Origin: Devosia indica
GTDB lineage: Bacteria; Pseudomonadota; Alphaproteobacteria; Rhizobiales; Devosiaceae
Assembly (NCBI RefSeq): GCF_003056405.1
Contig: NZ_PYVZ01000006.1
Span: forward strand, 124,001-188,000
DNA length: 64,000 bases
Reading direction: 5' to 3'
Shown here: piece by piece, positions 36,890-42,713 of the stretch
Layout: each line of letters opens with the position of its first letter
How positions within the stretch are numbered: position 1 is the first letter of the stretch
The notes under the pieces: model-generated
What the model was told of the DNA's origin: nothing
What the model saw: the letters and a program-made list of their open reading frames with translations, nothing else
Databases searched by the model: none
Made by a program: the position numbers and the translations under genes

Positions 36890-37915
36890 TCAGCGAATGG
36901 GCGGTGCGTAAAACAGGCCGCCATTGGCCCAGAGAGCATTCTGGCCGCGGAGCATTGCTGCGCCGGTCTGTGGTCCGAAATGGCGGTCATATAGCTCGGA
37001 ATAATTGCCGATAGCCCTGATGGCATCGGCCATAAAGGTCGGACGCAGGTCTAGGGCGGCACCGTAGTCGCCCTCGACTCCGAGAACGCGCCGGACGGCC
37101 GGCGTTCTGGCAGCAGACAGTGAGTCGATGTTGAGGCTGGTTACTCCAACTTCTTCAGCCTCAATCAGGGCGAATATGGTCCAGCGCACAATCTGGAACC
37201 ACTGGTCATCCTGATCGCGTACGACCGGTCCTAGGACTTCCTTGGAAATTCTCTCTGGCAGAATGCGATGCAATGCCGGATCGGGCAGTTCGCGGCGAAT
37301 GGCCTGAAGCTGCCGCCCGGAGGCGGAAATAGCCTGGCACAAGCCGCTGCGGTATGCGGTCGCCAGATCAGCGATTTCCTCGTATGCCACCGCACGATAG
37401 CTGGTCTGGTTCGTGAAGAAAAACTCGTCAAGCGCTTCGACTTCACCATAGCTGTCGGCCACGCAGATGCTGACACCATCCAGCTCATATGCAGACACAA
37501 CGCCCATGGCGTTGGGGACGAGAAATGCCTGACCGTCGAAAAAGGCCGGCGCCACATAGCGTGCACCGTAGCGAATATCGCGTCCCATCGTCCACGCACC
37601 ATTGCGCATGAACACATCAACTGCCCCTGTCTCAAGTGGCGCAAAACGGGCCTCGCCGCGATAGGAGCGAAATTCAATCAGGTCAGGATTGCCGAAAATC
37701 GCTGCGGCCAGAGCACGGCACAAATCGACATCGAAGCCGGACCACCGGCCATCAATGTCCTGCTGGGAAAAGCCCGCAAGTGGATTGCTGGAGCCGCAAA
37801 TGAGAAAGCCGCGCTCGCGTACGGCGTCCAGGGTCTGGGCACTAGCGGGCACAGGCCACGCGGCAGCCGACACCAGGGCAGTCAGAAACAGCAATGACTT
37901 GAACAGCTTGCTCAC
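36890..37915 (-). CDS. Second AapJ-like amino-acid ABC substrate-binding protein
   Basis: This periplasmic binding protein of the polar amino-acid family is clearly related to AapJ encoded at 41691-42713: both share LGVEGD, ISKE-LGP, EEVGVTS/EELGVTS and a final PIR. The usual amino-acid-binding SRTTTWT loop of AapJ reads MRNGAWT here, suggesting altered ligand preference. The GTG at 37915 is preferred, with GGAAGG 8 bases upstream and a normal signal peptide (KLFKSLLFLTALVSAAAW). The ATG at 37945 has no such site. It is separated from aapP by a terminator and transcribed the same way. Confidence 0.85.
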   Translation of the reverse strand: MSKLFKSLLFLTALVSAAAWPVPASAQTLDAVRERGFLICGSSNPLAGFSQQDIDGRWSGFDVDLCRALAAAIFGNPDLIEFRSYRGEARFAPLETGAVDVFMRNGAWTMGRDIRYGARYVAPAFFDGQAFLVPNAMGVVSAYELDGVSICVADSYGEVEALDEFFFTNQTSYRAVAYEEIADLATAYRSGLCQAISASGRQLQAIRRELPDPALHRILPERISKEVLGPVVRDQDDQWFQIVRWTIFALIEAEEVGVTSLNIDSLSAARTPAVRRVLGVEGDYGAALDLRPTFMADAIRAIGNYSELYDRHFGPQTGAAMLRGQNALWANGGLFYAPPIR

Positions 37916-37963
37916 CAGGACGGCCTTCCACTTCCCGAGCAGCATATTGGACGGCGCAACAAA

Positions 37964-38021: not shown

Positions 38022-38825
38022 CTAGTGCAGGATCTGGCTGAGGAACAGCTTGGTTCGCTCGTGCTGCGGATTGGAGAAGAAGGTCTCGGGCTCGTTCTGC
38101 TCGATGATCTGCCCCTGATCCATAAAGATCACACGATTGGCGACCTGACGCGCAAAGCCCATTTCGTGGGTGACGCAGATCATCGTCATGCCTTCTTCGG
38201 CAAGGCTGATCATTACTTCGAGCACTTCCTTGACCATTTCGGGGTCGAGTGCGGAAGTCGGCTCGTCGAACAGCATGATCTTGGGCTGCATGCAAAGAGA
38301 GCGCGCAATGGCAACGCGTTGCTGCTGACCACCGGAAAGCTGGCCGGGGAACTTGTTCGCCTGTTCCGGAATTTTGACCCGCTCCAGATAGTGCATCGCC
38401 GTAGCTTCTGCTTCCGCCTGTGGAATGCCTCGCACCCAGATCGGTGCCAAAGTCAGGTTCTGCAGGATGGTCAGATGCGGGAACAGATTGAAGTGCTGGA
38501 ACACCATGCCAACTTCTCGCCGCACCTCATCGATGCGCTTGAGGTCAGCGGTCAGCTCCGTGCCGTTGACGATGATCTGCCCCTGTTGATGTTCTTCGAG
38601 GCGGTTCATGCAGCGGATGAGTGTCGACTTGCCCGAGCCGGAAGGGCCGGCGACGACAATACGCTCGCCCCGCATCACCTTGAGATCGATGTCACGCAAC
38701 ACATGGAAGTCACCATACCATTTGTGCATGCCGACAACGTCGATTGCCACATCGGTGTCGGACACCTTCATCTGGCTGGCATTGATGGCGCGCTCTTCGG
38801 CGCTGTTGGAGGAAATGTCGCTCAT
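38022..38825 (-). CDS. aapP: General L-amino-acid ABC transporter ATPase AapP
   Basis: This is the energising subunit of the AapJQMP importer. Walker [11 protein letters not shown]-loop [13 protein letters not shown], signature [15 protein letters not shown] and Walker [16 protein letters not shown] are all intact in 267 residues. It is the last gene of the operon, 5 bases after aapM. Confidence 0.95.
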
Positions 38826-38830
38826 TGACG

Positions 38831-39967
38831 TTACCCTTTATGCCCGGTGTCCAGTCGTCGCTCCATCCAGATGGAGTAGCGGGACATGGCGAAACAGAAG
38901 ACCCAGAAAACCATGCCGGCGAAAAGATAGCCCGTAATGGCCTGGGTTGGAGATGACCAATCGATATCGGAACTTGCCGCCTGCACGGTGTTCAACAGAT
39001 CGAAAATCCCGACGATCGATACCAGAGAGGTGTCCTTGAACAGCGCGATGAAGCTGTTGACGATGCCAGGAATGACGTGTTTGAGAGCCTGCGGCAGGAT
39101 GATGAACCACATGGACTTCCAGTAGCTCAACCCCAAAGACGAGGCCGCCTCATACTGTCCGCGCGGCAGCGCCTGCAGGCCACCTCGAACAACCTCGGCG
39201 AGATAGGCCGAGGAGAACAGGGTTACACCCACAAGCGCCCGCAATAACTTGTCGACCGTCGTGCCCTGCGGCATGAAAAGCGGCAACATTACCGACGCCA
39301 TGAACAGCACCGTAATCAGGGGGACTGCGCGCCACAGTTCGATGAACATGATGCACAGCGTCTTGATGATCGGCAGTTTGGATTGCCGCCCAAGGGCCAG
39401 CAGGATGCCGATCGGTATCGAACAGATAATGCCGACAAGCGAGATGATCAGGGTCACCAGCAGGCCACCCCACTGTTCGGTCGGCACCGACGGCATGCCC
39501 AGTACACCACCGTTGAGCAGGTAGAAGCAAACCACGGGGTAGACCACAAAGAACAGGATCGCATTGGTCCGCTTGAACGGGACCCGCGGGATCGCCAGCG
39601 GGATGATCAATAAGGTGCCCAGGGCAAAGACCAGATTTGGCCGCCAATATTCTTCGGCTGGGTAAAAACCGTAGATGAAGAACGTCATGCGGGCCGAGAT
39701 ATAAGCCCAACATGCTCCTGCTGTTTCAACCCGGCATTGCTCAACCGTGCCGCCGGGCGGCACGGCGTCGCCGCCCAGGAAGTTGGGCATGACGAACCCG
39801 TAGATGGGCGGGATCGCCCAGACCAGCAGCACGATCGCCAAAATGGTCAGCAGACTGTCGCTGGGCGTTGCGAAGAGGTTGCGGCGGGCCCAGGCAATCG
39901 GGCCGGCCGTATTGACCGGCGCGGGGGCCGGCTCAACCATTTGTTCCCGAACGAAGGAGAATGACAT
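38831..39967 (-). CDS. aapM: General L-amino-acid ABC transporter permease AapM
   Basis: This HisM-type permease carries the EAA loop that contacts the ATPase ([22 protein letters not shown]), preceded by several membrane helices. A long N-terminal extension, typical of AapM, is present. The ATG at 39967 has AGGAGG exactly 6 bases upstream; the ATG at 40006 is too early. At 378 residues it is normal for AapM, unlike its partner AapQ. Confidence 0.94.
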
Positions 39968-39977
39968 GCTGGACCTC

Positions 39978-41513
39978 CTAGCGTTCCACAAGCGCGACAC
40001 GCGCATTGTACCAGTTCATGAATGCCGACGTCGTCAGTGACAGGGTCAGATAGACCAGCATGGTGATTGCAATCACCTCGATGGCCTTGCCCGTCTGGTT
40101 AAGGGTGGTGCCCATGAAGACGTTGACCAGTTCGGGATATCCGATGGCTGCACCAAGAGACGAGTTCTTGGTGAGGTTCAGATACTGGCTGGTGAGCGGC
40201 GGAATGATTACCCGCATGGCCTGCGGCACGACGACCAGACGCAGCCGGTCCCCTTCCCGTAATCCAAGCGAAGACGCCGCTTCGGTCTGCCCTTTGCTGA
40301 CAGCTTGAATGCCGCTGCGCACGTTTTCAGCGATGAAGGCTGCCGTGTAGATGGTCAGCCCCAGGACCAGGGCCACCATTTCAGGAACAAGCTGCAGGCC
40401 GCCCGCGAAATTGAAGCGCTCCAGCACCGGGATCTCAAAGGCCAGGCTGGCGCCGGTCACCCAGTAGACCAGTGCCGGCAAAGCGATGACGATGAGGACA
40501 GGCAAGGCCAAGGGCAGCTTGCCTTCCGTGGCCGCCGACCGCCGATCGGCGGACAGCATGGTCCAGGCTATGCCAAGCGCGACCAGAGCAGCGCCGAGGA
40601 CGATGATCCCTTCACCAAGCCCGGCGAACATGCCACCAAGCAGGAAATTGGCCACTGCCCAGCCGATGGCGAACCCGATGAAAACCCGGCCATAGCGGCC
40701 ATAAGGGGAGAGGCTGATACCCGCAAGGACCAGTGCGCCGATCAACGGGAACACCGGGCCCAAGGACAGCGCCGGAACGACCGTTCCAAGCAGGCTGATG
40801 GCAAGATATCCGACCCCGAAGGTCACAATCAGCCCTGCGATCCGGGACGCCCGAGAGACGACGACCGGATAGTGACCCGTCTTGGTTCTGACGCGGGTCG
40901 CCCAGACGACCATGGCAATGGCGGCAACAAGAGCCAACACAGCCGTTACGGCAACCCAGAATATCTCAAAATCGGGCAGTGGCCGCGGCACAATAATGCC
41001 GCGCTGATTGACGAAGATGCTGAGGGGTAGTTCGAAAGACTGGCGCACCGCAGGCATGGCCTTGAGCACGGCGAAGTACCAGAAGAAGAGCTGCAGCAGC
41101 AGCGGGATATTGCGGATCACTTCGACATAGACCGTCGCACACCGGGCGATCAGCCAGTTCGAGGACAGACGTGCAACCCCGAGCACAAAGCCGAGCATCG
41201 TCGCAAAGATGATGCCGATGACGGCTACGAGCAGAGTATTGAGCAGTCCGACGACAAAGGCCTGCCAGTAGTAGGAGGAGCGGTCGAACGGAATAAGGGT
41301 GAAACTAATACCGAAGCCAGAGGTCTCGAACAGGAAGCCGAAGCCGGTCGACTTGTTCTGTGCGGCGAGATTCTGCGCTGTATTGAGTATGATCCAAGTG
41401 AGGAAGGCGATAACGAGGCCGGCCACGACCAACTGATAGAAAATGCCTCGAATTACCGGATCATTGTAGAAAGCTGTTCGCGGTGGCCCCGCGATATTGT
41501 CCTGGACGGCCAT
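39978..41513 (-). CDS. aapQ: General L-amino-acid ABC transporter permease AapQ, with extra membrane segment insertion
   Basis: AapQ pairs with AapM to form the translocation channel. It has the N-terminal GFGFLFETSGFGISFTLIPF segment, the first permease half with TVYVEVIRNIPLLLQLFFWYF, and the EAA loop [22 protein letters not shown] near residue 411. The protein is 511 residues, about 110 longer than typical AapQ (about 400). The excess lies around residues 213-333 and adds roughly four hydrophobic stretches (for example IGALVLAGISLSP and GIIVLGAALVALGIAWTML) between the two conserved halves. The frame is uninterrupted, so this is an insertion, not a frameshift. Confidence 0.92.
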   Translation of the reverse strand: MAVQDNIAGPPRTAFYNDPVIRGIFYQLVVAGLVIAFLTWIILNTAQNLAAQNKSTGFGFLFETSGFGISFTLIPFDRSSYYWQAFVVGLLNTLLVAVIGIIFATMLGFVLGVARLSSNWLIARCATVYVEVIRNIPLLLQLFFWYFAVLKAMPAVRQSFELPLSIFVNQRGIIVPRPLPDFEIFWVAVTAVLALVAAIAMVVWATRVRTKTGHYPVVVSRASRIAGLIVTFGVGYLAISLLGTVVPALSLGPVFPLIGALVLAGISLSPYGRYGRVFIGFAIGWAVANFLLGGMFAGLGEGIIVLGAALVALGIAWTMLSADRRSAATEGKLPLALPVLIVIALPALVYWVTGASLAFEIPVLERFNFAGGLQLVPEMVALVLGLTIYTAAFIAENVRSGIQAVSKGQTEAASSLGLREGDRLRLVVVPQAMRVIIPPLTSQYLNLTKNSSLGAAIGYPELVNVFMGTTLNQTGKAIEVIAITMLVYLTLSLTTSAFMNWYNARVALVER

Positions 41514-41690: not shown

Positions 41691-42713
41691 TTAGCGGATG
41701 GGCATGGCGTACTGCAGACCACCATCGGTCCACAGTGCGTTCAGGCCGCGCTCAAGGCCAATGTCGGTCTCGGGACCAACATGCTTGGCAAAGGATTCGC
41801 CGTAGTTACCAACATGCTTGATGATGCGGTAGGCCCAGTCAGCGGTGAGGCCGATCGGGGCGCCGAAGTCACCCTCGACGCCGAGCAGGCGCTTGATGGC
41901 CGGATTATCGGAACCAAGCATTTCATCGACATTGGCCGAGGTCACGCCCAGCTCTTCAGCTTCGAGCAGCGCGTAGTAGGTCCAGCGGTTGATATAGAAC
42001 CACTGCTCATCACCCTGGCGGACGGAGGGGCCAAGCGGCTCCTTGGAGATGATTTCCGGCAGAATGGCATAGTCGTCCGGATTGCCGAACTTGGAGCGCT
42101 CAGCAGCCAGAGCCGAGGAGTCTGTGGTGTAGACGTCGCAACGGCCATCTTCGAAGGCCTTAACCACCTCGTCCTGGTCGGTGAACACCACCGGCGAGTA
42201 GTCCATGCCGTTGGTCTCGAAGTAGTCGGCGGCGTTGAGTTCGGTGGTGGTGCCGGACTCGATGCAGATGGCCGCACCGGACAGATCCAGAGCAGACGCA
42301 ATGCCATCGGCCTTGCGCACCATGAAGCCCTGACCGTCATAGTACATCGTCCCTGCGAACATGATGCCCAGATCGGTATCGCGGCTCATGGTCCAGGTCG
42401 TGGTACGCGAGAGAATGTCGATTTCACCCGCCGACAGAGCGGCGAAACGCTCCTGGGATGTCAGCGGGGTATAGCGAACTGCCTCGGGATCATCGAAAAC
42501 CGCGGCCGCAACGGCTCGGCAGAAGTCGACTTCAAGCCCGGTCCAGTTGTTGTTGGCATCGGGGGCCGAGAAGCCTGGCACACCACCAGTGACACCGCAC
42601 TGGATATAACCCTTGGCCTTTACGTCATCGAGAGTAGCGGCTTGAGCAGCCGTCGCGCCGAGGCCCAGCGAGGCCGCGATTGCGATCGATACGAGCGCTT
42701 TTTGCATTTGCAT
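41691..42713 (-). CDS. aapJ: General L-amino-acid ABC transporter binding protein AapJ
   Basis: This periplasmic receptor of the broad-range amino-acid importer has a signal peptide ending AAQA (about residue 25), then the family stretch GYIQCGVTGGVPGFSAPD. The ligand-binding SRTTTWTMSRD loop and the conserved LGVEGDFG and NYGE motifs are present. At 340 residues it is typical. It is the first gene of aapJQMP. A 214-base gap separates it from the divergent metC gene and must hold both promoters. Confidence 0.94.
   Translation of the reverse strand: MQMQKALVSIAIAASLGLGATAAQAATLDDVKAKGYIQCGVTGGVPGFSAPDANNNWTGLEVDFCRAVAAAVFDDPEAVRYTPLTSQERFAALSAGEIDILSRTTTWTMSRDTDLGIMFAGTMYYDGQGFMVRKADGIASALDLSGAAICIESGTTTELNAADYFETNGMDYSPVVFTDQDEVVKAFEDGRCDVYTTDSSALAAERSKFGNPDDYAILPEIISKEPLGPSVRQGDEQWFYINRWTYYALLEAEELGVTSANVDEMLGSDNPAIKRLLGVEGDFGAPIGLTADWAYRIIKHVGNYGESFAKHVGPETDIGLERGLNALWTDGGLQYAMPIR

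Follow-up and report, generated by a model that had tools for sequence, protein, structure and literature searches.

The aapJ-aapQ-aapM-aapP operon on the minus strand of the window (the whole stretch of 64,000 nucleotides of Devosia indica DNA analyzed here) encodes an AapQ permease of 511 residues, whereas AapQ usually has about 400 residues, with membrane helix 4 connected to helix 5 by a short linker. What, then, are the 116 extra residues found in this linker, how did they come to be there, and what do they do to the transporter? The reading that we favor, with a probability of roughly 0.6, is that an ordinary AapQ was enlarged by a module of four membrane helices that had one origin and spread by recombination, and that would face the lipid, be dispensable for transport, and at most tune assembly, stability, or contacts.

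The aap operon and its AapQ permease

The genes for the solute-binding protein, aapJ (positions 41691 to 42713, minus strand), and for the ATPase subunit, aapP (38022 to 38825, minus strand), are conserved neighbors in related loci. Between them lie aapQ (39978 to 41513, minus strand) and aapM (38831 to 40006, minus strand), the latter encoding a protein of ordinary length. The AapQ protein matched both TIGR01726 (HEQRo_perm_3TM; 64.5 bits, with a cutoff of 42.2) and PF00528 (BPD_transp_1; 47.6 bits, with a cutoff of 26.4). Its EAA-type coupling loop is conserved, residues G408, Q409, E411, A412, G417, and P430 being invariant. Since its core, its EAA loop, and its coupling to the ATPase do not differ from those of other AapQ proteins, the protein should import amino acids. 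The 511-residue AapQ is a length variant, and its length is no criterion for excluding it from the polar amino-acid ABC importer permeases of the AapQ type.

Long and short forms of AapQ

Alignment of 93 distinct AapQ proteins separated 61 short forms from 32 long forms. Between fixed alignment columns, corresponding to residues 190 to 351 of the window protein, the linker measured exactly 46 residues in all 61 short forms and 160 to 162 residues in 31 of the 32 long forms; in the remaining one (L028) it reached 180, and no linker of intermediate length was found among the 93 proteins. The insert lies in frame in the cytoplasmic linker between helices 4 and 5, after the motif W-A-T-R-x-R-T-x-T-G and before (K/R)-(F/L)-P. 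In the window it covers approximately residues 214 to 332 (40518 to 40874, minus strand) and adds 116 residues to the canonical linker. The preliminary description, made from the sequence of this locus, had placed an in-frame insertion of about 110 to 120 residues at 40515 to 40877 within a 511-residue protein with intact flanking conserved blocks; the alignment with the 61 ordinary proteins bears this out, with borders that agree to within one codon and both flanking motifs retained. The GC content at third codon positions was 0.75 in the insert and 0.72 and 0.76 in its flanks, and total GC was slightly higher in the insert (0.64) than in the flanks (0.57 and 0.60).

Two of the aligned or related proteins carry further additions. 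The 180-residue linker belongs to a long AapQ (L028:1501-3090, minus strand) with another 18 residues, several of them acidic, between the third and fourth insert helices (c and d). An AapQ from a Xanthobacteraceae metagenome bin (L097:3947-5296, plus strand) carries its addition elsewhere: a distinct insertion, about 37 residues long, sits in the loop that joins helices 3 and 4.

AapM was said to show no similar change, and this was found to be so: the window AapM has 391 residues, within the ordinary range, and the protein measures 375 to 391 residues beside long AapQ and mostly 368 to 391 beside short AapQ. There was no useful correlation between AapM length and the long form. A second gene for an AapJ-like solute-binding protein follows aapP in the window (36890 to 37945, minus strand; 351 amino acids, about 40% identical to AapJ proteins). 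Homologues of it with more than 55% identity were present at 18 of 19 loci with the long form and at 20 of 60 with the short form, and this gene likewise gave no useful correlation with the long form.

Predicted topology and internal repeat of the insert

An AlphaFold2 model of the AapQ monomer, computed from a 73-row alignment with AapM and AapP left out (mean pLDDT, 80), placed four helices in the insert, at residues 217 to 245 (a), 254 to 266 (b), 272 to 295 (c), and 301 to 322 (d), with block-mean pLDDT values mostly between 82 and 92; helix b is short in the model, at 13 residues. The predicted fold of a short form, that of Devosia nitrariae (L062), contained the same other helices and lacked these four. 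All four segments were hydrophobic in each of the 32 long forms (lowest mean Kyte-Doolittle value, 1.2), in agreement with the roughly four hydrophobic stretches noticed earlier. The predicted cytoplasmic stretches carried positive net charge (+3.6 in the linker before helix a, +1.6 between b and c, and +0.5 after d), whereas the a-b and c-d loops were nearly uncharged (+0.1 and -0.3, respectively). This distribution points to two in-out-in hairpins, so that the insert at 40518 to 40874 is predicted, from the model together with the charge and hydropathy pattern, to add four membrane helices and to leave the orientation of the core unchanged. AapQ would thus illustrate how membrane helices can be added in even number while the topology of the protein is preserved.

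The two hairpins resemble each other. Profiles of hairpin 1 (r1, residues 214 to 271, helices a and b; 40701 to 40874, minus strand) and hairpin 2 (r2, residues 268 to 332, helices c and d; 40518 to 40712, minus strand), which share four residues, scored 25.4 in profile-profile comparison. None of 150 column shuffles exceeded 16.8, and comparisons of the insert hairpins with unrelated membrane windows of AapQ and AapM gave at most 14.5 to 15.4. The two hairpins are thus homologous to each other, and an internal duplication is the likely source of this similarity.

The idea that the insert is a copy of the protein's own helix 4-5 hairpin was suggested by a likeness of its flanks (TG-x-YP before the insert and EG-K-FP after it) and found no support in profile comparison. 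The stretch from helix 4 through the linker to helix a scored 12.5 against that from helix d through the linker to helix 5, below the 95% level of the shuffles (14.2), and the insert hairpins scored at most 13.1 against all short-form windows.

Distribution of the insert

A profile of the insert (A2), built from 31 inserts, was searched in all 136 genomes of the family. It matched in 34 of 75 Devosia genomes (E ≤ 1.3e-32); as 3 of the 75 gave no AapQ match, the long form is present in 34 of the 72 Devosia species genomes having AapQ. Elsewhere in the family a single genome (G123) was matched, with an E value of 2e-5 and at exactly the same site of AapQ. This AapQ has 539 residues (L152:3521-5137, plus strand) with a diverged and longer insert, and that of a genus neighbor (G121) is of normal length. 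The same search in 398 genomes of the order yielded no other credible carrier; the match pairs listed for 111 genomes of the order lay side by side, as in ordinary AapQ.

The preliminary description had named two findings that would refute it, namely, that the long protein is simply the ordinary form of its clade or that it reflects a sequencing error. The former proved half right: the nearest relatives share the insert, as do nearly half of the Devosia genomes with AapQ, but across the remaining 15 genera of the family it is present in a single genome. Long and short AapQ are, on these counts, a long-standing polymorphism of the genus Devosia and not the oddity of a single genome. Sequencing error is excluded, since the insert recurs in many independent assemblies, including those of D. 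marina and D. subaequoris, whose AapQ proteins are 97% and 96% identical, respectively, to the window protein.

The window insert gave no Pfam match above the cutoff, no NCBIfam match, and no convincing PDB match, and Pfam matches such as MFS_1_like and TgpA_N, considered as pointers to a source family, were below the cutoff or scattered over few members. Outside AapQ, no homologue of the insert was found in the whole genomes searched, apart from two weak matches judged to be due to chance: a fragment with stops (G044; E value, 0.008) and an unrelated membrane open reading frame resembling a cation efflux protein (G453; E value, 1e-4). Within what was searched, the insert thus has no known free-standing relative. 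The literature, which was covered in part, yielded no description of a long AapQ, and the term "aap" is absent from the main text of a comparative study of Devosia (PMC6981132).

Three further observations concern particular genomes. Two Devosia genomes with a long AapQ encode, at another locus, an additional AapQ that is diverged and of normal length (G008:C11:239527-240642 and G036:C34:198535-199596). In a less complete genome (G038, locus L153), the aap operon is spread over several frames, probably through assembly errors. For a contig binned as Aquificaceae (L103), a binning error is probable: its AapQ and AapM are close to the Thiotrichaceae proteins.

Evolutionary history of the long form

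Most trees were quick searches with SH-aLRT support only, and the species tree, based on rpoB and rpoC, included some fragmentary or long-branched rows. On this species tree the form of AapQ changes 15 times, with strong branch support for at least 12 of the changes, compared with 3 changes on the tree of the AapQ core, where the long forms fall into three separate groups, and 5 on the AapM tree. Residues 160 to 213 alone, that is, the periplasmic loop and helix 4 arm (40875 to 41036, minus strand), unite the 32 Devosia long forms in one clade with an SH-aLRT value of 98.1, and residues 334 to 511 do so with a value of 96.8; within the latter lies the arm formed by helix 5 (residues 336 to 353 in the AlphaFold2 model) and the next periplasmic loop (residues 333 to 376; 40386 to 40517, minus strand). 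A single long-form clade was rejected by residues 10 to 160 (AU test, P = 7.6e-10) and by residues 376 to 511 (P = 0.012), and the tree of the insert mixes the two main species clades (AU test, P = 5e-7).

Sister genomes differing in form were compared along the operon. Between G056 (a metagenome-assembled genome) and G054, AapJ and AapP are 97% identical, whereas identity is 72 to 78% for AapQ and 78% for AapM; identity at third codon positions falls from 73 to 77% to 53 to 61% in the middle of the operon. The pair G001 and G044 showed the same trend, with agreement at the ends of the operon and difference in its middle, and between Root436 and Root635 the divergence of the middle was weak. 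Close pairs of two long forms showed even identity along the operon.

The simplest account of these data would be a single origin of the insert followed by homologous recombination that swapped stretches of aapQ, sometimes together with aapM. The accessory helix 4-5 hairpin of AapQ would have been enlarged in its cytoplasmic linker by a four-helix membrane module, which had a single origin, a two-helix hairpin having probably been duplicated in tandem, and was then passed on and lost by recombination of aapQ or aapQ-aapM stretches among Devosia species. The signal in the two arms could stem instead from helices 4 and 5 having coadapted with the insert. Neither the internal repeat nor the interspecies exchange had been proposed for this locus before.

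Purely vertical descent of the insert from an ancestor of the Devosiaceae, in which it was lost many times independently and never exchanged between species, would suit the age of the insert, which is only 27 to 34% identical between gene clades while the cores are 73 to 87% identical, and would also suit the diverged carrier in another genus. It would, however, demand many losses on the species tree, each restoring a linker of exactly 46 residues, and it is at odds with the conflict of insert and arm trees with the species tree and with the replaced aapQ-aapM stretches in sister pairs. Repeated exact loss is a weaker account than a single origin with recombination, and we regard it as improbable. 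That several lineages independently acquired insertions at a tolerant site is suggested by the three separate groups of long forms in the core tree; nevertheless, the inserts are homologous throughout, share their end points, differ little in length, and are adjoined by stretches that form one clade, which makes this explanation very hard to credit.

Conservation and possible role of the insert

For the insert, dN/dS was 0.05 to 0.17 in seven of the eight most closely related pairs and 0.35 in the other, compared with 0 to 0.06 for the two AapQ cores in the same pairs. In more distant pairs, where synonymous sites are near saturation, the median for the insert was high, at 0.43. Neither stops nor frameshifts were found in any of the 32 carriers. 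The insert evolves fast yet under purifying selection. Its nearly invariant positions are few (TG-x-YP, A226, V230, F281, M295, and F296). A binding site would fit this pattern less well than selection to keep the insert hydrophobic, of a given length, and well packed.

Under the single-origin reading, the module would add two complete hairpins, each beginning and ending in the cytoplasm, so that the core helices and the ATPase-coupling EAA loop would keep their orientation and transport should persist. Most likely the module is peripheral to the permease, facing the lipid, and most likely it is dispensable because sister species do without it. Any effect would concern how stable the permease is, how it assembles, or which other membrane component it contacts.

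A functionless decoration, hydrophobic and topology preserving and kept because it is harmless, would account for the low sequence conservation, the absence of the insert from sister species, and the high dN/dS in distant pairs. The intact frames in all carriers and the values well below 1 in close pairs speak against it, although low dN/dS could reflect merely the need to fold and to insert into the membrane; we hold this reading to be a serious if tentative one. Selection for contact with a specific membrane protein or regulator, for which the insert would be a docking domain, could explain the same purifying selection, the few nearly invariant positions, and the confidently predicted helices. 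On the other hand, such a domain would not be expected to evolve so fast or to be missing from sister species, and no covarying neighbor was found when AapM length and the second binding-protein gene were tested, so that we consider a docking role unlikely. Rather doubtful, in our judgment, is a two-state trans-species polymorphism in which helix 4, the insert, and helix 5 form an exchangeable membrane cassette, kept within a single genus since the module alters assembly or partner according to niche.

Closely related pairs of long and short forms would allow the effect of an accessory membrane module on a transporter to be tested. For annotation, the length of Devosia AapQ should be expected to vary from about 400 to 510 residues.

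Comparison with known systems

The closest described counterpart is AapQ of the AapJQMP system of Rhizobium leguminosarum (PAAT family), which shares with the window protein the J-Q-M-P gene order, the core sequence, and the accessory helix 4-5 hairpin; the window protein differs in its four further predicted membrane helices in the helix 4-5 linker and in its length (511 versus about 400 residues). In R. leguminosarum AapQ, the substitution P144D lowers transport (PMC2978685). The invariant proline P137 of the motif RNIPLLLQ in the window protein probably corresponds to P144.

The core fold is shared with the permease of an amino acid ABC importer of known structure (PDB 4yms), with a TM-score of 0.81 to 0.82 normalized on the 4yms chains and an E value of 6e-6 for the structure match. 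In sequence, 4yms matches in two pieces, residues 81 to 150 and 376 to 506 of the window AapQ, and it has neither the accessory hairpin nor the insert. The stretch between these two pieces is the accessory region of the AapQ type, which in ordinary AapQ consists of one hairpin (helices 4 and 5).

The architecture of an ABC importer permease is commonly regarded as fixed. In AapQ, orthologues of sister species either have or lack a four-helix membrane module at exactly one position, and recombination can apparently spread such a gain of helices in even number. A specialist may find this two-state polymorphism mildly surprising; the protein itself belongs to a familiar type that here bears an unusual extra module. 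In maltose importers, permeases of the MalF type likewise have helices and a large loop in addition to the ABC importer core, and these additions are regular features of their families. The AapQ insert, in contrast, lies at another position, has no known sequence relation to those additions, and varies within one genus.
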